From NCBI RefSeq assembly GCF_000186865.1, contig NW_008705572.1, positions 517,384 to 581,383 of the forward strand: 64,000 bases of DNA, written 5' to 3'. The notes under the pieces were generated by a model. That model was not told the DNA's origin and ran no database searches. It saw only the letters and a list, made by a program, of their open reading frames with translations. Source of the stretch: Aureococcus anophagefferens (Eukaryota > Sar > Pelagophyceae > Pelagomonadales > Pelagomonadaceae). The position numbers and the translations under genes are program-made. Of this stretch, positions 38,522 through 51,855 are shown in pieces. Every line of letters starts with the position of its first letter. The first letter of the stretch is position 1.

Positions 38522-41500
38522 TTAGATGCGCGCGCTCGCCAGCGCCACGTCCGCGCGCTCCACCGCCTCCGCGTCGACGGTGGCCGCGCCGCCGTCGTCG
38601 TTCGCGTCGTCCGCCCGCCGGACCCGACGCCGCAGCCCCGCGACGCAGGAGCGCAACTCGTCGCCGCTAAAGTTCGCGAGGATGATCAGCCAGAGCGCGA
38701 TGAGAAGCGTGGACGCGAGGAGCACGACGAGGAGGCTCGCGAACACCTTGCCCGAGAAGACGCCGTCGTGCTGCTCGAGATTGTCCGTCGCGAACACCAT
38801 CAGCGCGTAGAAGAACACGAGGACGAGCTCCGTCTGCGCGACCTCCGAGACGACCCCGTCGTCCTCCTCGACGTAGGGCTCGTAGTGGCTGAAGACGCGG
38901 TAGGAGATGAGGCTGCCGAGGAGCCCGATGGCGATCTGGGAGATGGAATCGGGCACGAACATGGACAGGCACCCCGTGAGGAAGATGCGGCGGGAGACCT
39001 CGTAGACCATGAACATGAAGCAGCTCGGTTTGAACTCCTCGTAGAGGAACCGCACGCTCTCCAGCGTCGGGTCGTTCGCCCGCGCCTCGAGCTTCTGGAA
39101 CTGGACCATCGATTCCGCGTGCCGCTCGAGCGCCTCGTGGAGGAAGTCCTCGTCCTCCTGGTTCGCCGCGTGGGCGCCCGCTTCGCCGATGGTCCGTCCT
39201 GAAGGCGTTCGAACCGTTTGATGGTCCACGTCGGGGTCCAGCCGCCGCCGCAGCCGCCAGAGCAGGCACGCGAAGCCGAGGGGCACGCCGACGGGGTAGG
39301 CGACGATCGAGAACAGCACGTAGGGCAGCCACGCGTCGTACGTCGGGCTGTCGCAGCTGATCGTCGGGTCGATGCGCATGACGTTGACGCCGTCGCCGTA
39401 GCCGCCGTCGTACTTTGCACACGCGAAATACCGCAGGCAGTACGCGGACGTCGAGGGCACGAGGACGTAGAGCGTGAAGAGGATCCAATACGAAGCCCCG
39501 GAGAGGATCTCGTCCCGCCGCGACCGATCCACGCACGCGTAGCGGATCGCGAATCCGACCGCGATCAAGAGGACGAAGACGACGGGGAGCAGGGTCACGA
39601 AGAGAAGCTTGTCGAAGTAGTCGAAATCTCCGAAGCACTCCGTTTTGGCGAAACTGATGAAGCTCAGATTCACGACGGATCCAAGCTTCAGGGCCTCTTT
39701 GAAGATGGTGGGGAAGCGCACTTGCGGGAGCGACCACGGGATGCTGCACGCGATCTGGTACGTCGCGATGACGATCTTTGCTTTCGTCATGACGTTCTGC
39801 TCCATGGACCGTCCCGACGACTCCTTGTCGTCGGCGCTCTGCGTGTCGCTGCCGGCGGCTTCTCCGTCTTCGTCATCTTCGTAATGCTCCTCGAGCTTTG
39901 CCTTCGCGATATCTTTGACTGCCTCGCCCTGGACGACTTCGCGAATCGCGTCGACCCCGTGACCCAAAACGGTGAAGATGCCAAACTTTCGCATCACGAC
40001 GCCGATGGCCGCGACGACAAATAGGACGGCCAGCACGGTCCCGATGATATTGTCCCCGCTCGCCTTGATCTTGTTGCCGCAGTCCACGCAGCGGTTCGCG
40101 GCCGTGTCGTAGAAGTAGTGCGCCTTGCACGCGCCGCAGAGCGGGCCCTTGTGGCCGCGCGCGCACGAGCTGTTGGCTCCGCCCTTGCACGACTCTTCGA
40201 AGATACATTCGTAGATTGACGTCGCGTCGATCGACGCGCGCCAGAAATTCTTCTTCAGGTCCATCGTCTCCAAGGTCGTGCGCGCGCCCTGGGGACAGTT
40301 CGCGCACGTCTCGACGCCGCCTTCGCACGCGTCGTCGCACTCGACGCAGCACTCCTTGCACGGCAGCGGCTGTCCGTTTCCGTCAAGGAGCTTCTTGTCG
40401 GCGTGCGTGGCGTACTTTCTCGAGTCCCAGTAGTAGGCCTCGCGGCACGCGTCGCAATACGTCTTGCCCTCTTCGAGCGTAGTCGTCGGCGTCTCGCAGA
40501 GCTGACACGAGGACTGGCCGGTGAGATTGCTGTAGTAGCCGAGCGGACACTGTGCGCAAGATGACGCCGCAGCACCCGACGTCGTCCCGACGGGACACGG
40601 CGTCGCGGCCGAGGCGCCCTCGACGGGCACGAACGTGCCGGGCGACGCGAGCTTGCAGCTTGTCTGACCGAGAGCGTCCGAGTACGTCCCGCGCGAACAC
40701 GGCGTGCAGTCGCTCTCGCCGGCGGCGGAAATGGTCCCCGCGGGGCACTCGACGACGAGCGCGTCCGTCGTCGAGCGAGCTTCGGTAACCGCGACCTCCG
40801 TGCTTCCAGTGATGGTCGCCGCGCTCGACGCCTCGTCGATGGCCGCCGACGCGAGCGACGTGCCGGCCGCGCGGTCGTCGAGCGCACTTTGCGCGTCTCC
40901 GGTCGATATCGAAGAGAGCAGCGTGTCCTGGAAGCCATCCTTGAACCGGTCGAGGTCGAGTTCCTCTCCGGGAACGAGGGTGTAGTTCGCGTAGGCGACG
41001 AAGGAGATTTGATCGTGGTTCGCCGCCGTCGCGAGACGACGGCGAGCGGCGAGATGCACGTCCCGCGCTGGCACGTCGTAGACTTCATCCGAGTGAATGC
41101 TTTCCTGGACTGCGGATGCAAAGGCCTGAAGAGCCGCGTGGTCTTCGGGAAAGCGATCCGCGTCCAAGCCCTCGAGCACGAGCGCGGAAGAGATCTCGAC
41201 GGTGACCGTGGAGAGCTCCGCGTTCGTGGAGCCGGCGTCGACGGGTCTGCACGTCGCCGACTCCCGATCGCTGGTTTGCCCATCGGGACACAGCGTGCAG
41301 GAGACCGCGCCGGATCCAGAGTATCGCCCCGCGGGACACGACGACGGCGCGACGGCTCCGTGGACCCACGCGAACTTGCCCGGAGGAGCGGCTTCGCAAG
41401 TGGCGGCCGCCTCGAGGTTCGCGTAGCGGCCGGGCTCGCAGAGCGTGCACGTAGAGGCCTTCGCGCCCGAGTAGGAACCGGGTGGACACTTCGTCTGTTC

Positions 41501-44500
41501 CGAACCGCCCTCCTCCTCGACGACGTAGCCCGCGTCCGCGATGACCGCGGCGAAGGCGCCCGACCGCGGGACGTACGATCCCGCCGGGCTCAAGTCGCAA
41601 GACGTTTGCCCGGCGCCGCTCAGAGTGCCCGCTTTGCAGGGCTCCTGTTGGGACGCGCCGTCTCTGGCGACGTAAGAGCCGGCGTTCGCGAGGACGCACG
41701 ACGTCGAGCCTTCCTCGGCGGCGTAGGAGCCCGCGGGACAGTTCGTACACTTGCTCTCGCCGGGGCGGCTAATCGTGCCCGCCGGGCAAAGCTCTTGCGA
41801 GGTGGCGCCGTCTTCTGAGGTATAGGAGCCCGCGTTCGCGATCGAGCACATCGTCGATCCAACCGCGCTCGCGTATTTGCCGGCCGGGCACTCGTCGCAC
41901 GCGCTCTTGCCGCTCTCCTCGGCGAACGTGCCCGCTTCGCAGAGATCGCACGTCGTAGACCCGGCATCGGACGCGTAGGTGCCGGGCTGACACTGCTCGC
42001 ACTTGCTCTGGCCGACGCCGCTGCGTTCTCCTGGTTCGCAGCGGACTTCTGAGGTCGCGCCCGGCTTCGCGACAAAGCTGCCCGCCGACGCGGCCGTGCA
42101 GGTCGCCGATCCTTGCTTGGAAGCATAAGATCCTTCGGCGCACGGGGTGCACTTTGAGGCCGCGGCGCCTGAATAGCGCCCAGCTTCGCACGGCACCTGT
42201 GCAGAGGCGCCTTCGTCTGCGCAAAAGTAGCCCTCATCCGCGAGCTCGCACGTATCCGCGCCCTCGTCGGCGTATCGACCGGCTTCACAATCCGCGCAGG
42301 ACGTCGCGCCCGAGGCGGAATATTTGCCAGCCTGACACGCCGTCGGCTCCGAGGCGCCGGAGCCTTCCACGTAGAATCCGCCTTTGGAGAGTTGGCACGA
42401 GGTCTTTCCCGACTCGCCCTGATACGCACCGGGCTCGCAGTCGTCGCACGCGAATGAACCGCCGCCCGGCGAGATCTTGCCCGGAGCGCACGGAGTCTGC
42501 GCGGTCGCGCCGGCGTCGGCCACGAATTCGCCCGCGCTGGCTAACTTGCAGACATTCTGACCTTCATCATCGGTGTATGACCCGCGCTCGCACTCGACGC
42601 ACTCGGACGCCCCGCTCGACGAGAACGTGCCCGGGGGACACGACGAGGTCTCGCCGGTGGAAAATCCTCCTGGTGGAGAATCTGTAAATACGGTCGCTGC
42701 GTCCACGCCTTCGGAGCTCATTTCGACGTCGACGGTCGCAGAGCCGAGCGCCGACCCCGAAAGCGACCGCCGCGAGGCCCAAAGCGCGCGCCGTCCCGAA
42801 GAGACCGCCTCCTCAATATTCCGCTGCAGGGTGCCGTCCTCGATCTTGGCGAGGAGGTCGAGCTCAAAGTCTTCGAGAACGAGCTCCTCGGTCGACATGA
42901 GATCTTCGCCGGCCGCCGCCGTGTAGTTCGCTTCGAGCTCGAAATCGATCTTCGCGCTCGAGCCGTTGGCGACGGCGGGGCCCACGGAAGCAATGCCGGC
43001 GCTGTCCACCATGAAGCTGAACAGATCCGCGACCAGCGTCGCCTCGAGAGCCGCCTTCAATTGCGCGTTGGCCACGGCGTCGTCGTTGAATGCGGACGCG
43101 TCGACGCCGTTCAGGGCCAGAGACGACCTGATGGTCATCAGCACGACCTCGGCCGGGGGCGCCCGCTTTCCGGCGTCGACCGTGGTACAAGCCGCCTCGC
43201 CGGCTTTGTTCGTCGTGCCGGCCGGGCACACCGCGCAGTAGCTCGCGGCCGCACCGGAATACCGGCCCGCGGGACACATGGTCTCCGCCGTGGCTCCCGT
43301 CGAAGCCACCATGGTCCCGCCGCTCGAGAGGGCGCAGGACGATTGTCCGCTCTCCGCGGCGAACGTTCCTTCCTCGCAGCGTGTGCACGCGGACGCGCCC
43401 ATGCCGCTGTAGGACCCCGCCGGGCATGGCGTCGCTTCGAACGCGCCGGACGCGCCGACGAAGGAGCCGGCGTTCGACAACTGGCAAGAGGTGCCGCCGC
43501 GCTCGTCCGCGAAGGTCCCGGGCTGGCACGCGTCGCACTCGGTGGCGCCCGAGCCGCTGATCTTGCCGGCATCGCACAGTGTCTGCGTCGAAGCGCCGGT
43601 CTCGTTCACGAAGGAGCCAGCGTCGGCGAGGGCGCAGCTCGACTGCCCGGTCTCGGGTCCGTAGGTACCGACGCCGCACTCGATGCACGGTCCCGAGCCG
43701 GCGCCCTTGAAGGTCCCGACCGGGCACGCGCTGCACTCGCTCGCTCCGGCGGAGCTGCTCGAGTAGCCCGCGGGGCACGACGTGCAGGATGATTCGCCCT
43801 CGCCGCTGAAGGTGCCGATCTCGCAGTCGACGCACTCGCTCGCGCCGGAGCCGGAGAAGCTTCCCGCGGGGCACGATGTCTGCTCGGGGGCGCCAGCCAA
43901 GTCGACGAAGGACCCGCCGTCCGCGAGGGCGCAGCTCGACTGGCCGGTCGCGTCCTGGTACGTCCCGCGCTCGCACTCGTCGCACTCGCTCGCGCCAGAG
44001 CCGGAGAAGCTTCCCGCGGGGCACGCGGTCTGCTCTGAGGCGCCGGTGTCGTTCACGAAGAAGCCGGAATTTGCGAGGAGGCAGCTCGACTGCCCGGTCT
44101 CGGGTCCGAACGTGCCCGCGCCGCACTCGACGCACGGCCCCGAGCCGGCGCCCTTGAAGGTCCCGACCGGGCACGCGCTGCACTCGCTCGCTCCGGCGGC
44201 GCTGCTCGAGAAGCCCGCGGGGCACGACGTGCAGGATGAGTCGCCCTCGGTGCTGTAGGTGCCGACCTCGCACGTCGCGCACGCGGAGCTGGCCGTCGCA
44301 GAATACGTCCCCGCGAAGCAAGCCGTGGACGCCGAGGCGCCCGTGCTGCCGACGAAGCTGCCCGCCTCCGCGAGCTTGCAGTCGCTCGAGCCCTCCTCGT
44401 CCGCGTACTTGGCCGCGGCGCAGTCGAGGCACGGTCCCGAGCCGGCGCCCTTGTACTTGCCGACCGGACACGCCTCGCACTCGCTCGCGCCCTCGGCGTC

Positions 44501-47500
44501 GCTCGAGTACCCGCTCGGGCACAGCGTGCACGTGTCGCTGCCCTCGGTGCTGTAGGTGCCGACCTCGCACGTCGCGCACTCTGAGCTGGCCGTCGCGGCA
44601 TACGACCCCGCGAAGCACGGCGTGGACGCCGAGGCGCCCGTGCTGGCGACGAAGCTGCCCGCCTCCGCGAGCTTGCAGTCGCTCGAGGCCTCCTCGTCCG
44701 CGTACTTGGCCGCGGCGCAGTCGAGGCACGGTCCCGAGCCGGCGCCCTTGTACTTGCCGACCGGACACGCCTCGCACTCGCTCGCGCCCTCGGCGTCGCT
44801 CGAGTACCCGCTCGGGCACAGCGTGCACGTGTCGCTGCCCTCGGTGCTGTAGGTGCCGACCTCGCACGTCGCGCACTCTGAGCTGGCCGTCGCGGCATAC
44901 GACCCCGCGAAGCACGGCGTGGACGCCGAGGCGCCCGTGCTGGCGACGAAGCTGCCCGCCTCCGCGAGCTTGCAGTCGCTCGAGCCCTCCTCGTCCGCGT
45001 ACTTGGCCGCGGCGCAGTCGAGGCACGGTCCCGAGCCGGCGCCCTTGTACTTGCCGACCGGACACGCCTCGCACTCGCTCGCGCCCTCGGCGTCGCTCGA
45101 GTACCCGCTCGGGCACAGCGTGCACGTGTCGCTGCCCTCGGTGCTGTAGGTGCCGACCTCGCACGTCGCGCACTCTGAGCTGGCCGTCGCGGCATACGAC
45201 CCCGCGAAGCACGGCGTGGACGCCGAGGCGCCCGTGCTGGCGACGAAGCTGCCCGCCTCCGCGAGCTTGCAGCTCGACTGGCCCGTCGCGTCCTGGTACG
45301 TCCCGGCCTCGCAGTCGAGGCACTCGCTCGCGCCGGAGCCGGAGAAGCTTCCCGCGGGGCACGCAGTCTGTTCCGAAGCTCCAGTGTTTCCGGCGTAGAA
45401 GCCCTGACCTGCGAGCGCGCAGCTAGACTGACCCGTCAACACCTGGAACGTGCCGGCCGCGCAGTCGTCGCACTTGCCCGAAGCGGAGCCGGAGAATGAG
45501 CCCGCGGGGCATTCGCGTTGCTCCGAGGCGCCCATCGCGTCGACGAAGGACCCGCCGTCCGCGAGCTTGCAGCTCGACTGGCCCGTCGCGTCCTGGTACG
45601 TCCCGGCCTCGCAGTCGATGCACTCGTCCGCGCCGGAGCCGCTGTACTTGCCCGCATCGCACGCGGTCTGCTCCGACGCGCCGTCCGCTTGGACGAAGGA
45701 CCCGCCGTCCGCGAGCGCGCAGCTCGACTGGCCCGTCGCGTCCTGGTACGTCCCGGCCTCGCAGTCGACGCACTCGTCCGCGCCGGAGCCGCTGTACTTG
45801 CCCGCATCGCACGCGGTCTGCTCCGACGCGCCGTCCGCTTGGACGAAGGACCCGCCGTCCGCGAGCGCGCAGCTCGACTGGCCCGTCGCGTCCTGGTACG
45901 TCCCGGCCGCGCAGTCGTCGCACTCGCTCGCGCCGGAGCCGCTGTACTTGCCCGCATCGCACGCGGTCTGCTCCGACGCGCCGTCCGCTTGGACGAAGGA
46001 CCCGGCGTCCGCGAGCGCGCAGCTCGACTGGCCCGTCGCGTCCTGGTACGTCCCGGCCTCGCAGTCGACGCACTCGTCCGCGCCGGAGCCGCTGTACTTG
46101 CCCGCATCGCACGCGGTCTGCTCCGACGCGCCGTCCGCTTGGACGAAGAAGCCGGCGTCCGCGAGCGCGCAGCTCGACTGGCCGGTCTCGCCCTGGTACG
46201 TCCTGACTGTGCAAGTTGAGCACTCGCTCGCGCCGGAGCCGCTGTACTTGCCCGCATCGCACGCGATCTGCTCAGAGGCGCCGATCGCGTCGACGAAGAA
46301 GCCGGCGTCCGCGAGCTTGCAGCTCGATTGACCCGTCAAGTCCTGGTACGTCCCGGCCTCGCAGTCGATGCACTCGTCCGCGCCGGAGCCGCTGTACTTG
46401 CCCGCATCGCACGCGATCTGCTCAGAGGCGCCGATCGCGTCGACGAAGAAGCCGGCGTCCGCGAGCTTGCAGCTCGATTGACCCGTCAAGTCCTGGTACG
46501 TCCCGGCCTCGCAGTCGATGCACTCGCTCGCGCCCGGAGCAGAATACGACCCCGCGGAGCAGCTGGCGCACTCGCTCGCGCCCGCGGCCGAGGACTTGCC
46601 CGCGGCGCACTTCGTACACTGCGGGTCGCCCTCGGCCGAGAAGGTGCCCGCGTCGCACGACGTGCAGTTTGCGATGTTGAAGTAGCCGTCGAAGGTCGCG
46701 GTCTCGACGGTCCCCGCTGGACACGTCCCCTCCGTGCAGCCGCTCCCCGAGAAGACGTCGCCGAAGCACGCGCACGTCCCGGTGCCGCCCCTACCGTCGT
46801 CGCAGGAGCCGCGCGACCGGCCGCTCCCCGCGACGCCGCAGGTGTCCGTGAGGCGCGGCGCGTTGCGGTCTTCGTCACCCCCTTGCGGGCAGGGCTCGCA
46901 CGTGCTCCCGTAGAAACCCGCCTGGCACTCGCCGCACTGCATGACCACGTCGGGCACCTCGTGGTCGAAGCCGCCGAGGCACTGGCAGGACGCTTCGGAG
47001 AAGATGACGGAGGTCAGATCGCAGACGCCCTTGCTACTGCAGGCATTGCCGCCTTGCGTGCAGTAACCGTTCGCGAAGAAGTTGAGGACGCCGTCATCTT
47101 CGCCCACGACGAGGTCGAGGTCGCCGTCGCCGTCGAGGTCGGCGAAAGCGGGCTTGCTGTCGTCACCGATGTCGATGCCGTAGAAGGGGTTCGCGGTGCC
47201 GGTGACGGGCGCGTAGTCTGGCGACGCCGCGGACCCGACGTTCTCGTAGTAGTTGAGGGCGCCGTTGTCTTCGCCCACGACGAGGTCGAGGTCGCCGTCG
47301 CCGTCGAGGTCGGCGAGCGCGGGCGTGCTGCCGCTGACGTCGATGCCGTCGAAGGGGTTTGCGGTGCCGGTCCTGGCCGCGTAGGTCGGCGACGCCGCGG
47401 ACCCGAAGTTCTCGTAGTAGTAGAGGCCGCCCCAGTATTCGCCCACGACGAGGTCGAGGTCGCCGTCGCCGTCGAGGTCGGCGAACGCGGGCGCGCTGCT

Positions 47501-48841
47501 CCAACCGACGCCGATGCCGTCGAAGGGGCTCGCGGTGCCGGGGACGGCCTCGTAGCTCGGCGCTGTCGCGTTCCCGACGTTCGCGTAGTAGAAGAGGACG
47601 CCGTAGTTTTCGCCCACGACGAGGTCGAGGTCGCCGTCGCCGTCGAGGTCGGCGAACGCGGGCGCGCTGTAGTAACTGACGTCGATGCCGTCGAACGGGT
47701 TCGCGCTGCCGGTCCTGGCCGCGTAGGTCGGCGACGCCGCGGACCCGACGTTCTCGTAGTAGTAGAGGAAGCCGTACACTTCGCCCACGACGAGGTCGAG
47801 GTCGCCGTCGCCGTCGAGGTCGGCGAGCGCGGGCTTGCTCCGGGAACCGACGTCGATGCCGTCGAAGGGGCTCACGGCGCCGGTGACGGGCGCGTAGTCT
47901 GGCGACGCCGCGGAGCCGACGGTCTCGTAGTAGTTGAGGACGCCGTCCTCTTCGCCCAAGACGAGGTCGAGGTCGCCGTCGCCGTCGAGGTCGGCGAGCG
48001 CGGGCGCGCTGTTGTAACCGACGTCGATGCCGTCGAAGGGGTTCGCGGCGTCGGTGACGGCCTCGTAGCTCGGCGACGCCGCGGACCCGACGTTCTCGTA
48101 GTAGAAGAGGGTGCCGTCGTACTCGCCCACGACGAGGTCGAGGTCGCCGTCGCCGTCGACGTCGGCGAACGCGGGCTTGCTCCAGTGACCGAAGGCACCG
48201 ACGTCGATGCCGTCGAAGGGGTTCGCGGCGCCGGTGACGGCCTCGTAGCTCGGCGACGCCGCGGACCCGACGTTCTCGTAGTAGAAGAGGGTGCCGCCGT
48301 CTTCGCCCACGACGAGGTCGAGGTCGCCGTCGCCGTCGAGGTCGGCGAGCGCGGGCGCGCTGTGCCAACCGACGTCGATGCCGTCGAAGGGGTTCGCGCT
48401 ACCGGTGACGGCCTCGTAGCTCGGCGACGTCGCGTTCCCGACGTTCTCGTAGTAGTAGAGGAAGAGGTTCAATTCGCCCACGACGAGGTCGAGGTCGCCG
48501 TCGCCGTCGAGGTCGGCGAGCGCGGGCTTGCTGTAGGAACCGACGTCGATGCCGTCGAAGGGGTTCGCGCTACCGGTGACGGCCTCGTAGCTCGGCGACG
48601 CCGCGGACCCGACGTTCTCGTAGTAGAAGAGGGTGCCGTAGTATTCGCCCAAGACGAGGTCGAGGTCGCCGTCGCCGTCGAGGTCGGCGAGCGCGGGCGC
48701 CAATTGGACGTCGATGCCGTCGAAGAAGTTCGCGCGCTCGACGTACTGGTGCTCGTTCCCCCAGCAGACGGTCGCGTCCCGCAGGACGCAGAGCGCCGAC
48801 GCCCGGGCGGCCAGGAGCGCCAAGACGACGCTTCTCGCCAT
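38522..48841 (-). CDS. Giant surface receptor: signal peptide, FG-GAP, TNFR-like Cys repeats, multi-pass membrane domain
   Basis: A single 3439-aa frame. A signal peptide (MARSVVLALLAARASA) leads to ten FG-GAP/VCBS units (about 33-600: DLDGDGDLDLVVGE calcium loops), an EGF-like Cys cluster (about 600-680), then about forty ephrin-receptor/TNFR-like units (CPAGSFSGSGASEC..C..GTYQDATGQSSC) to about residue 2600. These are broken twice by a related domain (LMTIRSSLALNGVDASAF and VTVEISSALVLEGLDADRF). A Cys-rich membrane-proximal block precedes about eight hydrophobic segments (2914-3395), including VLAVLFVVAAIGVVM, LLPVVFVLLIAVGFAI and VFASLLVVLLASTLLIALWL. This resembles the TRP-like receptors expanded in stramenopiles. 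Inferred role: cell-surface adhesion or sensing. Confidence 0.85.
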   Translation of the reverse strand: MARSVVLALLAARASALCVLRDATVCWGNEHQYVERANFFDGIDVQLAPALADLDGDGDLDLVLGEYYGTLFYYENVGSAASPSYEAVTGSANPFDGIDVGSYSKPALADLDGDGDLDLVVGELNLFLYYYENVGNATSPSYEAVTGSANPFDGIDVGWHSAPALADLDGDGDLDLVVGEDGGTLFYYENVGSAASPSYEAVTGAANPFDGIDVGAFGHWSKPAFADVDGDGDLDLVVGEYDGTLFYYENVGSAASPSYEAVTDAANPFDGIDVGYNSAPALADLDGDGDLDLVLGEEDGVLNYYETVGSAASPDYAPVTGAVSPFDGIDVGSRSKPALADLDGDGDLDLVVGEVYGFLYYYENVGSAASPTYAARTGSANPFDGIDVSYYSAPAFADLDGDGDLDLVVGENYGVLFYYANVGNATAPSYEAVPGTASPFDGIGVGWSSAPAFADLDGDGDLDLVVGEYWGGLYYYENFGSAASPTYAARTGTANPFDGIDVSGSTPALADLDGDGDLDLVVGEDNGALNYYENVGSAASPDYAPVTGTANPFYGIDIGDDSKPAFADLDGDGDLDLVVGEDDGVLNFFANGYCTQGGNACSSKGVCDLTSVIFSEASCQCLGGFDHEVPDVVMQCGECQAGFYGSTCEPCPQGGDEDRNAPRLTDTCGVAGSGRSRGSCDDGRGGTGTCACFGDVFSGSGCTEGTCPAGTVETATFDGYFNIANCTSCDAGTFSAEGDPQCTKCAAGKSSAAGASECASCSAGSYSAPGASECIDCEAGTYQDLTGQSSCKLADAGFFVDAIGASEQIACDAGKYSGSGADECIDCEAGTYQDLTGQSSCKLADAGFFVDAIGASEQIACDAGKYSGSGASECSTCTVRTYQGETGQSSCALADAGFFVQADGASEQTACDAGKYSGSGADECVDCEAGTYQDATGQSSCALADAGSFVQADGASEQTACDAGKYSGSGASECDDCAAGTYQDATGQSSCALADGGSFVQADGASEQTACDAGKYSGSGADECVDCEAGTYQDATGQSSCALADGGSFVQADGASEQTACDAGKYSGSGADECIDCEAGTYQDATGQSSCKLADGGSFVDAMGASEQRECPAGSFSGSASGKCDDCAAGTFQVLTGQSSCALAGQGFYAGNTGASEQTACPAGSFSGSGASECLDCEAGTYQDATGQSSCKLAEAGSFVASTGASASTPCFAGSYAATASSECATCEVGTYSTEGSDTCTLCPSGYSSDAEGASECEACPVGKYKGAGSGPCLDCAAAKYADEEGSSDCKLAEAGSFVASTGASASTPCFAGSYAATASSECATCEVGTYSTEGSDTCTLCPSGYSSDAEGASECEACPVGKYKGAGSGPCLDCAAAKYADEEASSDCKLAEAGSFVASTGASASTPCFAGSYAATASSECATCEVGTYSTEGSDTCTLCPSGYSSDAEGASECEACPVGKYKGAGSGPCLDCAAAKYADEEGSSDCKLAEAGSFVGSTGASASTACFAGTYSATASSACATCEVGTYSTEGDSSCTSCPAGFSSSAAGASECSACPVGTFKGAGSGPCVECGAGTFGPETGQSSCLLANSGFFVNDTGASEQTACPAGSFSGSGASECDECERGTYQDATGQSSCALADGGSFVDLAGAPEQTSCPAGSFSGSGASECVDCEIGTFSGEGESSCTSCPAGYSSSSAGASECSACPVGTFKGAGSGPCIECGVGTYGPETGQSSCALADAGSFVNETGASTQTLCDAGKISGSGATECDACQPGTFADERGGTSCQLSNAGSFVGASGAFEATPCPAGSYSGMGASACTRCEEGTFAAESGQSSCALSSGGTMVASTGATAETMCPAGRYSGAAASYCAVCPAGTTNKAGEAACTTVDAGKRAPPAEVVLMTIRSSLALNGVDASAFNDDAVANAQLKAALEATLVADLFSFMVDSAGIASVGPAVANGSSAKIDFELEANYTAAAGEDLMSTEELVLEDFELDLLAKIEDGTLQRNIEEAVSSGRRALWASRRSLSGSALGSATVDVEMSSEGVDAATVFTDSPPGGFSTGETSSCPPGTFSSSGASECVECERGSYTDDEGQNVCKLASAGEFVADAGATAQTPCAPGKISPGGGSFACDDCEPGAYQGESGKTSCQLSKGGFYVEGSGASEPTACQAGKYSASGATSCADCEAGRYADEGADTCELADEGYFCADEGASAQVPCEAGRYSGAAASKCTPCAEGSYASKQGSATCTAASAGSFVAKPGATSEVRCEPGERSGVGQSKCEQCQPGTYASDAGSTTCDLCEAGTFAEESGKSACDECPAGKYASAVGSTMCSIANAGSYTSEDGATSQELCPAGTISRPGESKCTNCPAGSYAAEEGSTSCVLANAGSYVARDGASQQEPCKAGTLSGAGQTSCDLSPAGSYVPRSGAFAAVIADAGYVVEEEGGSEQTKCPPGSYSGAKASTCTLCEPGRYANLEAAATCEAAPPGKFAWVHGAVAPSSCPAGRYSGSGAVSCTLCPDGQTSDRESATCRPVDAGSTNAELSTVTVEISSALVLEGLDADRFPEDHAALQAFASAVQESIHSDEVYDVPARDVHLAARRRLATAANHDQISFVAYANYTLVPGEELDLDRFKDGFQDTLLSSISTGDAQSALDDRAAGTSLASAAIDEASSAATITGSTEVAVTEARSTTDALVVECPAGTISAAGESDCTPCSRGTYSDALGQTSCKLASPGTFVPVEGASAATPCPVGTTSGAAASSCAQCPLGYYSNLTGQSSCQLCETPTTTLEEGKTYCDACREAYYWDSRKYATHADKKLLDGNGQPLPCKECCVECDDACEGGVETCANCPQGARTTLETMDLKKNFWRASIDATSIYECIFEESCKGGANSSCARGHKGPLCGACKAHYFYDTAANRCVDCGNKIKASGDNIIGTVLAVLFVVAAIGVVMRKFGIFTVLGHGVDAIREVVQGEAVKDIAKAKLEEHYEDDEDGEAAGSDTQSADDKESSGRSMEQNVMTKAKIVIATYQIACSIPWSLPQVRFPTIFKEALKLGSVVNLSFISFAKTECFGDFDYFDKLLFVTLLPVVFVLLIAVGFAIRYACVDRSRRDEILSGASYWILFTLYVLVPSTSAYCLRYFACAKYDGGYGDGVNVMRIDPTISCDSPTYDAWLPYVLFSIVAYPVGVPLGFACLLWRLRRRLDPDVDHQTVRTPSGRTIGEAGAHAANQEDEDFLHEALERHAESMVQFQKLEARANDPTLESVRFLYEEFKPSCFMFMVYEVSRRIFLTGCLSMFVPDSISQIAIGLLGSLISYRVFSHYEPYVEEDDGVVSEVAQTELVLVFFYALMVFATDNLEQHDGVFSGKVFASLLVVLLASTLLIALWLIILANFSGDELRSCVAGLRRRVRRADDANDDGGAATVDAEAVERADVALASARI
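44259..45265 (-). repeat. 297-bp tandem repeat (3.4 copies) in the receptor gene
   Basis: Units at 44259-44555, 44556-44852 and 44853-45149, with a partial fourth, differ at only a few bases. Each encodes 99 residues, that is two Cys-rich modules (SECATCEVGTYSTEGSDTC and CLDCAAAKYADEE). Near-identity means very recent duplication or gene conversion. Confidence 0.9.
45421..46570 (-). repeat. 150-bp tandem repeat (about 7.7 copies) in the receptor gene
   Basis: The string agctcgactg (or a one-base variant) recurs at 45421, 45571, 45721, 45871, 46021, 46171, 46321 and 46471: an exact 150-bp period. Each unit encodes one 50-residue Cys-rich module (CDAGKYSGSGADEC..C..GTYQDATGQSSC). Confidence 0.9.
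47050..48741 (-). repeat. Ten FG-GAP-encoding units of about 170 bp
   Basis: Ten tandem units, each encoding FDGIDVG...PALADLDGDGDLDLVVGE...YYENVGSAASPSY. Calcium-loop codons are nearly invariant between units while linkers vary. The number fits one large integrin-alpha-like propeller plus extra blades. Confidence 0.9.
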
Positions 48842-49727: not shown

Positions 49728-51855
49728 TTATCGCGTCGTCAGGGGCATAGCTTCCCCGGCCTCGCGCTCGAGCTTCTCGACGCGCCCCTCGAGCTTGGCC
49801 AGAAAGAGCCGCTCGGGGACCTGCGCGAGGTTCGTGATGTGCACAAAGGGCAAGCCCCGGAGCCGCATCTCCTCGAGGCGCGGCCGGAGGCGCGAGTCGA
49901 GGGAGTAGCCGAGGAGCGCCGGGCACGCGATGACCGCCGCCGCGGCCGCGGCCGCGCCGTCGTCGACGCCCGGCGAGTCCGCGGCCGCCGCCGCGAGCGC
50001 GTCGAGCTTCGGGGCCAGGTTCGCGTCCACGGAGAGGCCGAGCACCGTCGGGTAGGACGCCACGAGGCTCGCGAGGTTCGCGCGCGTCCGCGTGTCGAAG
50101 ACGTCGTCGAGCGCCTCCGGCGGCGCCGACGCGTTGAGCGGCGGCGCGCCGAGGAGCCGCGCCGCCAGGAAGCGGCACGTCGTCCGCAGCGTGCCCGGCA
50201 CGCTCAGCCCGAGGCACTGGGGCCGCTTCGACACGACGGCCGCCGCGCGGTCCACGCCTAGCCCGAGCTCGTCGCGGAGGAACGCGAGGCGCTGCCGCAG
50301 CTTCGCGACCGCGACGGAGTTCGCGACCTTCGCCGCCTTGGTCGCGACGAGCGTCCCGAGCGACGCGGCCGCGCGCGCCGACAGGGCGAGCTCGTCGCCC
50401 AACGCGTCCGTGAGCCGCGCCAGCTGGTCCGGCGACGTCAGCAGGAGCTCCGGGTGCCGGTAGCACGCGTCGGAGGCCGCGCGCGCGCCCAGCGACGCCA
50501 CGAGGCCGTTGACCCGCGCGGCGAGCGTCGCCGCGTCGAGGCAGAGCACGCGCGGCGCCTTCTCGGCGACGCGGAGCGCCAGCGTCTTCGGCGCGTCGAG
50601 CGACGCGTTCGCCGCGCGCGCGGCGACGAAACCGCCGCTGCCCTCCGCGTCGAGCGCGTCGAGCGCCCGGAGCCGGCCCCGCAGGCCCGTCGCCCGGAGC
50701 GCGCCGGGCCACGTGCCTAGAAGCGCCGCCGGGAGCGCCGCGTCCAAATGCGCGTAGGTGCGGAAGTTGGGCTCGAGCGTCTTCCGGAGCGACGCCGTGA
50801 GCAGCTGCCTGTGTGGAAATCAACCAGTGAGCTGGGACGTCGGGGCCAAACTTCAGAAATCTCCAGCTCGGTCAAATCGAAGTCGATTTGGCTGATTTTT
50901 GGACGAATCGATTGCTCTCGTCAAGTTCTCGAAGCACATCCGAAGAGCTTGTGTCGAAACGGTCGCATACGCTCACATTCAAGTCGGGTTGAAGATTTGA
51001 TTTGCACGCAGGCAGCTGCGGGCACCTGACGCACGCGTCGCCGAGCCGCCTCCGCGGCACGCCGCAGCGCGCCGCGAGCCAGGCGATCTTCGCCGCCAAC
51101 GCGTCGGCGTTGAGGCCCAGGATCGTCGGCTGGCTCGACACGAGGCGCCGCAGCGCCGCGTCGTCGAGGTCCAGGGCCTCGCGGAGCGCCTCGCCCTTGC
51201 GCTGCAGCGTGTCGCGCCGCTGGCTCAGCACGGGCCCGTGCTGCGCGAGCACGCGGCTCAGGGTCTCCTCGTCGACCTGGAGCTCGTCGCGGAAGTAGAA
51301 GTAGCCCACGCGCTTCTCGAAGAGCGTGAGCATCAACGAGCCCTCGGCGAGCGCGCGCCGCGCGTCGTCGCTCTCGAGCTCCCGAATCTCCCCCGTCGTC
51401 TCCAGCTTGCGCCGCGCGGCCCGCTCGAGCTGCGCGACGCGCGCGAGCGACAGGTCGAGCCGCAGCGAGCACTCGAGCTGCGTCGACGGCTCCATCCAGT
51501 AGCGCTCCAATAGCACGTCGGCCTCGCGGTCCGTCAAGGGCGCGAGCGCGAGCTCCGCGTCGCCGCCGGCGGCGACGATGGCCGCGTGCAGCCAAAACGG
51601 CGCGTCGGGCCGCGGCGGGCTGAGGCCGTAGTACGCCTCCTCGTCGTCGTCGCCGTCGAAGGCGGACACGGCGTCGGCCCAGACGTCGAGGGGCTCGTCG
51701 GCGGCGCTCCGGCGCGTCGCTCGCGCGCGCGAGCACGCGTCGAGGCGCGGCGTTCGCGTGCGCGCGAACGCATGCGTCGAATCGACGAGGAGGGCCAGGG
51801 CGATAAAGGCGACTGCGTGTGTGTGCCAGGACGTTGCGCTGCGCGTCAGCGCCAT
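49728..51855 (-). CDS. Plastid-targeted fusion of sigma-70 region 4-like HTH and mTERF repeats (two exons)
   Basis: Exons 51855-51020 and 50808-49728 give 638 aa. The N-terminus is a signal peptide (HTHAVAFIALALLVDSTHA) followed directly by FARTRTPRL, the Phe-plus-basic transit pattern of secondary-plastid proteins. Residues about 105-150 read LTDREADVLLERYW ... LSLARVAQLERAARRKLE, a close match to bacterial sigma-70 region 4 (LT-RE-x-VL, then the recognition helix S-RV-Q-E-A-RKL). The remainder is repeated mTERF motifs (SSQPTILGLNADAL, RCPQLLTASLRK, KRPQCLGLSVPGTL, SYPTVLGLSVDANL). mTERFs bind organelle nucleic acids and act in transcription or RNA processing; the fusion suggests a plastid transcription factor. 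The splice across the introner restores RCPQLLTASL, an mTERF hallmark. Confidence 0.8.
50809..51011 (-). mobile_element. 203-bp diverged introner in the mTERF gene
   Basis: Ends CTGTGTGGAAATCAACC (left) and, inverted, CTGCGTGCAAATCAAATC form an imperfect inverted repeat. The target duplication is the palindrome GCAGCTGC (50801-50808 and 51012-51019), perfect. The interior (GTCCAAAAATCAGCC, then GACCGAG, TGAAGTT) aligns with the 192-bp elements at 14418 and 31493, though the ends have diverged. Intron 50809-51019 uses GC of the target copy as donor and ends ACACAG. Confidence 0.85.

Follow-up and report, generated by a model that had tools for sequence, protein, structure and literature searches.

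The nuclear genome of the pelagophyte alga Aureococcus anophagefferens contains a gene in which a real sigma-70 region 4 is joined to a real mTERF array. This gene lies on the minus strand of the window, by which we mean the whole 64,000-nucleotide stretch analyzed here (positions 517384–581383 of contig C12 in the 49-Mb, 86-contig assembly used for all genome scans). We lean, tentatively, toward the reading that this nuclear pelagophyte gene encodes an organelle-directed mTERF protein that captured a sigma-70 region 4 and is tied to the plastid polymerase. The coding region runs from an ATG at 51855 to a TAA at 49728–49730, and its two exons encode a spliced product of 638 amino acids (aa). 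An earlier note made from the letters of this DNA had given the same reading frame, coordinates, and sigma-like motif, all of which held up. The intron at 50809–51019 is absent from that account; the unspliced frame stops at 50872, and removal of this segment is needed to reach 638 aa. The parts of the gene are as follows.

49728–51855, minus strand: whole coding region (exon 1, 51020–51855; exon 2, 49728–50808).
51769–51855, minus strand: signal-peptide-like N-terminus, residues 1–29, followed by FARTRTPR (hydropathy, by eye).
51403–51549, minus strand: sigma-70 region 4 helix-turn-helix, residues 103–151 (PF04545, helices in both predicted models, structure matches).
51190–51357, minus strand: first mTERF-like repeat and most conserved block, residues 167–222 (RVGYFYFRDEL ... 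VLSQRRDTL).
51020–51357, minus strand: mTERF repeats, exon 1 part, residues 167–278 (best PF02536 stretch 190–294; MTERF1 and MTERF3 matches).
49790–50808, minus strand: mTERF repeats within exon 2, reaching about residue 618 (PF02536 stretches and genome scan).

The assignment of both domains was based on Pfam searches with the spliced protein. PF04545 (Sigma70_r4) matched residues 103–151 with 33.3 bits (E 3.3e-8) and PF02536 (mTERF) matched three stretches with 77.1 bits (E 1.5e-21), compared to curated cut-offs of 24.1 and 23.1 bits, respectively. These significant profile hits, a check that the earlier note had proposed, confirm its placing of a sigma-70 region 4 at residues 105–150 with mTERF repeats directly behind. 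At E-values up to 1, Sigma70_r4 and mTERF were the only Pfam families found in the protein, and no other family of helix-turn-helix (HTH) domains was detected. NCBIfam sigma-factor models over region 4 of three related proteins (P0001, P0002, and P0006) all remained below their curated cut-offs; other hits in these proteins were a weak one to an autoinducer-type regulator and a chance one to L10.

The unspliced translation of exon 1 (278 aa) already matched Sigma70_r4 (E 1.2e-8) and mTERF (E 1.4e-4), the latter with 21.4 bits, slightly below the cut-off as the array is cut by the exon end. Since both domains start in one uninterrupted exon, the fusion is independent of the splice guess. The splice model is itself supported, because the junction CVRCPQLLTASLRK in the spliced protein is identical in P0001, a separate database protein, and because P0002 aligns across the junction without a gap. 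At the genome level, PF04545 detected seven loci, the fusion gene among them with 37.6 bits, and PF02536 scored 26.2 bits in exon 1 and 26.1 bits in exon 2.

Related proteins were collected by three protein searches in which about 8000 candidates sharing the most words with the query were scored. Six proteins were returned, and five of them score for both domains and fall into two lineages, which we infer to be pelagophytes both. The sixth, P0003, comes from a merged gene model (described below) and was excluded from the fusion counts. The fusion protein shares 98% identity with P0001 over 97% of its length and 47% with P0002 over 89%; a whole-protein alignment to P0002 contains 294 identities in 594 positions (49%). 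Over residues 88–290 of P0002, this protein shares 88, 86, and 84% identity with P0004, P0005, and P0006, and 54% with P0001. Region 4 was detected with E-values of 3.5e-8 in P0001, 1.9e-11 in P0002, and 7.2e-12 to 1.5e-11 in P0004–P0006, while mTERF scored 77.8 bits in P0001, 92.6 in P0002, and 97.3 in P0006. Because P0004 diverges from the others past about column 435 of alignment A2, it was excluded from the fold alignments; the short P0005 (357 aa) was retained. Identity between the fusion protein and P0002 peaks in the block of residues 167–222 (73%, 41/56) and in region 4 (61%, 30/49), and is lower in the later repeats (36–57%), linkers (33–46%), and presequence (34%). Profile and region searches gave only these two lineages. 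The earlier note had proposed to look for the same architecture in other heterokonts; none was found among the scored candidates, which does not establish its absence there. Neither prokaryotic nor viral genome contigs, scanned with two short peptide patterns each, provided a relative (97 and 71 pattern matches, none confirmed).

The protein joins two well-known families in a new domain architecture, which is conserved in a second lineage. No sigma/mTERF fusion is described among the literature matches listed by our search, which did not extend to preprints and most subscription papers; within this scope the earlier note, which knew of none, is borne out. Excerpts from two algal surveys (PMC3499364, PMC4827209) treat mTERF and sigma-70 as separate families only.

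Structure prediction, also proposed in the earlier note, indicated the expected HTH helices for region 4 in both models as well as the MTERF-type superhelix fold. The best structural match was MTERF1 (3n6s/3mva). MTERF3 (3m66) and DNA-bound sigma region 4 (1ku7, 2h27) were also retrieved by Foldseek, the sigma region 4 matches being weaker than those to MTERF1. Additional matches included the UPF0122 proteins 1xsv and 1s7o, MTERF4-NSUN4, and mitoribosome chains. The two domains are predicted to fold as a sigma region 4 and an MTERF1-like superhelix. With MTERF1, MTERF3, and the plant proteins mTERF5 and mTERF6, the fusion protein shares the helical repeat superhelix and a PF02536 score above the cut-off, and it differs from this family by the N-terminal addition of sigma region 4. 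UPF0122 proteins likewise have a fold resembling sigma region 4 and lack the other parts of a sigma factor, but they are bacterial and not joined to mTERF. The genome encodes at least one other mTERF locus (L008, C5:54687–55505), which contains mTERF only. Low numbers are usual in algae, with 0–6 mTERF proteins per species in a table of PMC4827209, compared to about 30 in higher plants according to an excerpt from PMC4005652.

How does this protein relate to true sigma factors? The fusion protein has the helix-turn-helix of region 4 in common with factors of the sigma-70 family, among them the alga's own. In sigma factors, region 4 lies at the C-terminal end; in the fusion protein it is located close to the N-terminus and is followed by mTERF repeats. 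Pfam did not find regions 2 (PF04542) and 3 (PF04539) in the fusion protein, P0001, P0002, or P0004–P0006, whereas the six other region 4 loci in the genome all carry both above the cut-off. The absence of regions 2 and 3 indicates that the fusion protein is not a sigma factor. The −35-reading helix of sigma-70, TRERIRQIE, corresponds to SLARVAQLE or SLTRVN(T/N)LE in the fusion proteins. In all six fusion proteins, the residues aligned with R584, E585, and R588 are L, A/T, and A/N. By comparison, among the genome's six full sigma factors R588 is kept in every case, E585 in five, and Arg or Lys at position 584 in five. Excerpts from PMC2613000 and PMC10911233 describe contacts of R584 and E585 with bases at −31 and −33, and report that changes at R588 alter the same −35 specificity. 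Since the −35-reading residues are replaced, ordinary −35 recognition by the fusion protein is unlikely, and another specificity is possible. This substitution pattern weakens the suggestion of the earlier note that the protein could recognize promoter −35 elements. Its other suggestion, contact with the flap of the plastid RNA polymerase, may hold.

Region 4 of the fusion protein is about 26–34% identical to that of the six sigma factors (15–20 of 58 positions); an origin of the HTH from one of these factors found no clear favorite. Three of the six (L004, L005, and L007) contain partly altered −35 helices of their own (KESVRQIC, KEWVRRCE, and EKKIRAIE), which suggests diversified plastid promoter use.

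Proteins destined for heterokont plastids carry a signal peptide and then a transit-like leader, with an ASAFAP-type motif that places a Phe at the site of cleavage. The N-terminus of the fusion protein reaches a mean hydropathy of up to 2.45 around residues 13–23, followed by the leader HAFARTRTPR, with a Phe and then an Arg-rich segment (seven Arg in residues 30–60). Candidate cleavage sites, placed by eye, are THA-FARTRTPR in the fusion protein, ASF-QIAP in P0005 and P0006, and TTA-LRCTP in P0002. To the eye, the N-terminus also resembles those of several sigma factors of the genome. The signal peptide and Phe/Arg leader noted earlier are visible by eye, and the plastid targeting read from them is plausible.

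mTERF proteins control organelle transcription, their arrays bind nucleic acid, and MTERF1 has been solved on DNA. In the reading we favor, the mTERF array would bind nucleic acid, and sigma region 4, the domain that in sigma factors is seated on the polymerase flap, would tie mTERF to the plastid polymerase. The fusion protein could then pause, terminate, or block this polymerase at chosen sites. Plant plastid mTERF5 and mTERF6 have been reported to act in this manner without a sigma part: PMC6085346 reports that plastid mTERF6 terminates transcription at rpoA in plants, and PMC8420055 cites mTERF5/MDA1 as a pausing factor at psbEFLJ. More likely than ordinary −35 recognition is that the sigma-like domain serves either to dock the protein on RNA polymerase or to clamp DNA, and that the mTERF carrying it would pause or terminate transcription in the plastid. 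A bolder version, which we regard as rather unlikely, is that these proteins are pelagophyte-specific regulators with a decoy-like region 4 that sits on the plastid polymerase flap and replaces or competes with the real sigma factor, while mTERF holds plastid DNA. If true, promoter escape, pausing, and termination would come under the control of one protein.

Several observations weigh against a protein tied to the plastid polymerase. The Foldseek E-values of the sigma matches are above 1, and the models were computed from four sequences with a pTM of 0.52–0.55 and therefore do not fix the mutual placing of the two domains. Only two lineages are represented, one of them by near-identical copies. 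The position equivalent to F563, a flap/AsiA-side residue of sigma-70, is Tyr in the fusion protein, as it is in two of the six genome sigma factors. Import into the plastid is read by eye from the N-terminus; in P0002 the hydrophobic stretch is followed by a Leu instead of a Phe, and P0004 comes without an N-terminus. Finally, no plastid rpoB scored above the cut-off in the assembly (five weak matches were taken as nuclear polymerases), so that the plastid genome seems to lie outside of it.

The main rival to polymerase tethering is that the HTH serves as an additional domain for binding DNA or RNA, which would extend or direct the footprint of the mTERF array without polymerase contact. This explanation is a real possibility, if a somewhat doubtful one. 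It would account for an HTH fold that is retained while its −35-specific residues have changed, and for the Arg and Lys still present in the recognition helix; stand-alone folds of this kind (UPF0122, 1xsv and 1s7o) do match the models. Nothing speaks directly against it, and conservation across two lineages suits a protein or a DNA partner alike. A promoter-specific regulator as envisaged in the earlier note, with region 4 reading plastid −35 boxes and mTERF binding nearby, could draw on the Pfam-significant region 4 and its matches to the DNA-bound structures 1ku7 and 2h27. The L, A/T, and A/N substitutions in all six fusions, unlike most sigma factors of the genome, make this very improbable.

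Other known functions of mTERF proteins lie in mitochondria, in the assembly of ribosomes, and in the splicing of introns, and MTERF4-NSUN4 and mitoribosome chains appear among the structure matches. The fusion protein could thus have a mitochondrial, organellar-ribosome, or RNA-splicing role, with the sigma-like HTH as a structural relic. We find this improbable, given that the start of the protein looks more like a signal peptide than a mitochondrial presequence (by eye and hydropathy) and that the HTH ranks with the more strongly conserved segments. One might also suspect that two adjacent genes, or a misassembly, were taken as one, in particular because one GenBank model of this same locus, P0003, does run into the neighboring gene and testifies to error-prone annotation. 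The chance of such an artifact is negligible: both domains start in exon 1 without a stop, and the same fusion in five separate database proteins already contradicts it.

To our knowledge, how mTERF proteins meet the polymerase is mostly open. A natural fusion with a polymerase- and promoter-facing sigma domain points to a direct physical link between mTERF and the bacterial-type plastid polymerase, and offers a compact protein with which to test this link. The fusion may have been invented within the pelagophyte lineage only, and it may represent a sigma domain that was recycled after loss of promoter specificity.

The only intron of the gene consists of an introner element plus one copy of an 8-bp target-site duplication.

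50809–51019, minus strand: spliceosomal intron, 211 bp, GC donor and AG acceptor; after splicing, the junction is the same as in P0001.
50809–51011, minus strand: introner element, 203 bp, 49% GC, with terminal inverted repeats CTGCGTGCAAATCAA / CTGTGTGGAAATCAA.
51012–51019, minus strand: 8-bp target-site duplication GCAGCTGC, second copy at 50801–50808.

The element stands out by its GC content from the gene (75%), and the duplicated target supplies the splice donor. A genome search with the introner gave 1711 candidates; 40 were scored, this copy included, and all of them were at least 91% identical. The element is thus multicopy, with inverted ends and a target-site duplication, and it lies within an intron, a position seen for this copy only. 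Among ten loci inspected, including this one, the 8-bp duplication was perfect at nine and contained a single mismatch at the other; at eight its first two bases are GC or GT, a potential splice donor. Introner elements described for Aureococcus in excerpts from PMC9860276 are likewise short and multicopy, have inverted ends and 8-bp duplications, and act as introns. In the Aureococcus sp. family of that paper, both splice sites lie within the element and 12 bp are added to the transcript, whereas in the present gene the duplication provides the donor and no base pair is added.

The merged model P0003 (Aureococcus anophagefferens, GenBank JL721_12728) is 88% identical over 27% of the fusion protein. 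It combines part of exon 1 with the introner, which is read through, and with the repeat-rich neighbor that follows downstream. P0003 begins inside region 4, and its precomputed Pfam list contains neither domain. Because of this faulty merger, the fusion is invisible in that annotation. The neighbor, at 38522–48841 of the window, is a single intronless open frame of 3439 aa with many repeats, of a kind matching the P0003 Pfam accessions PF01839, PF13517, and PF07699, and with a C-terminal membrane region recognizable by eye.
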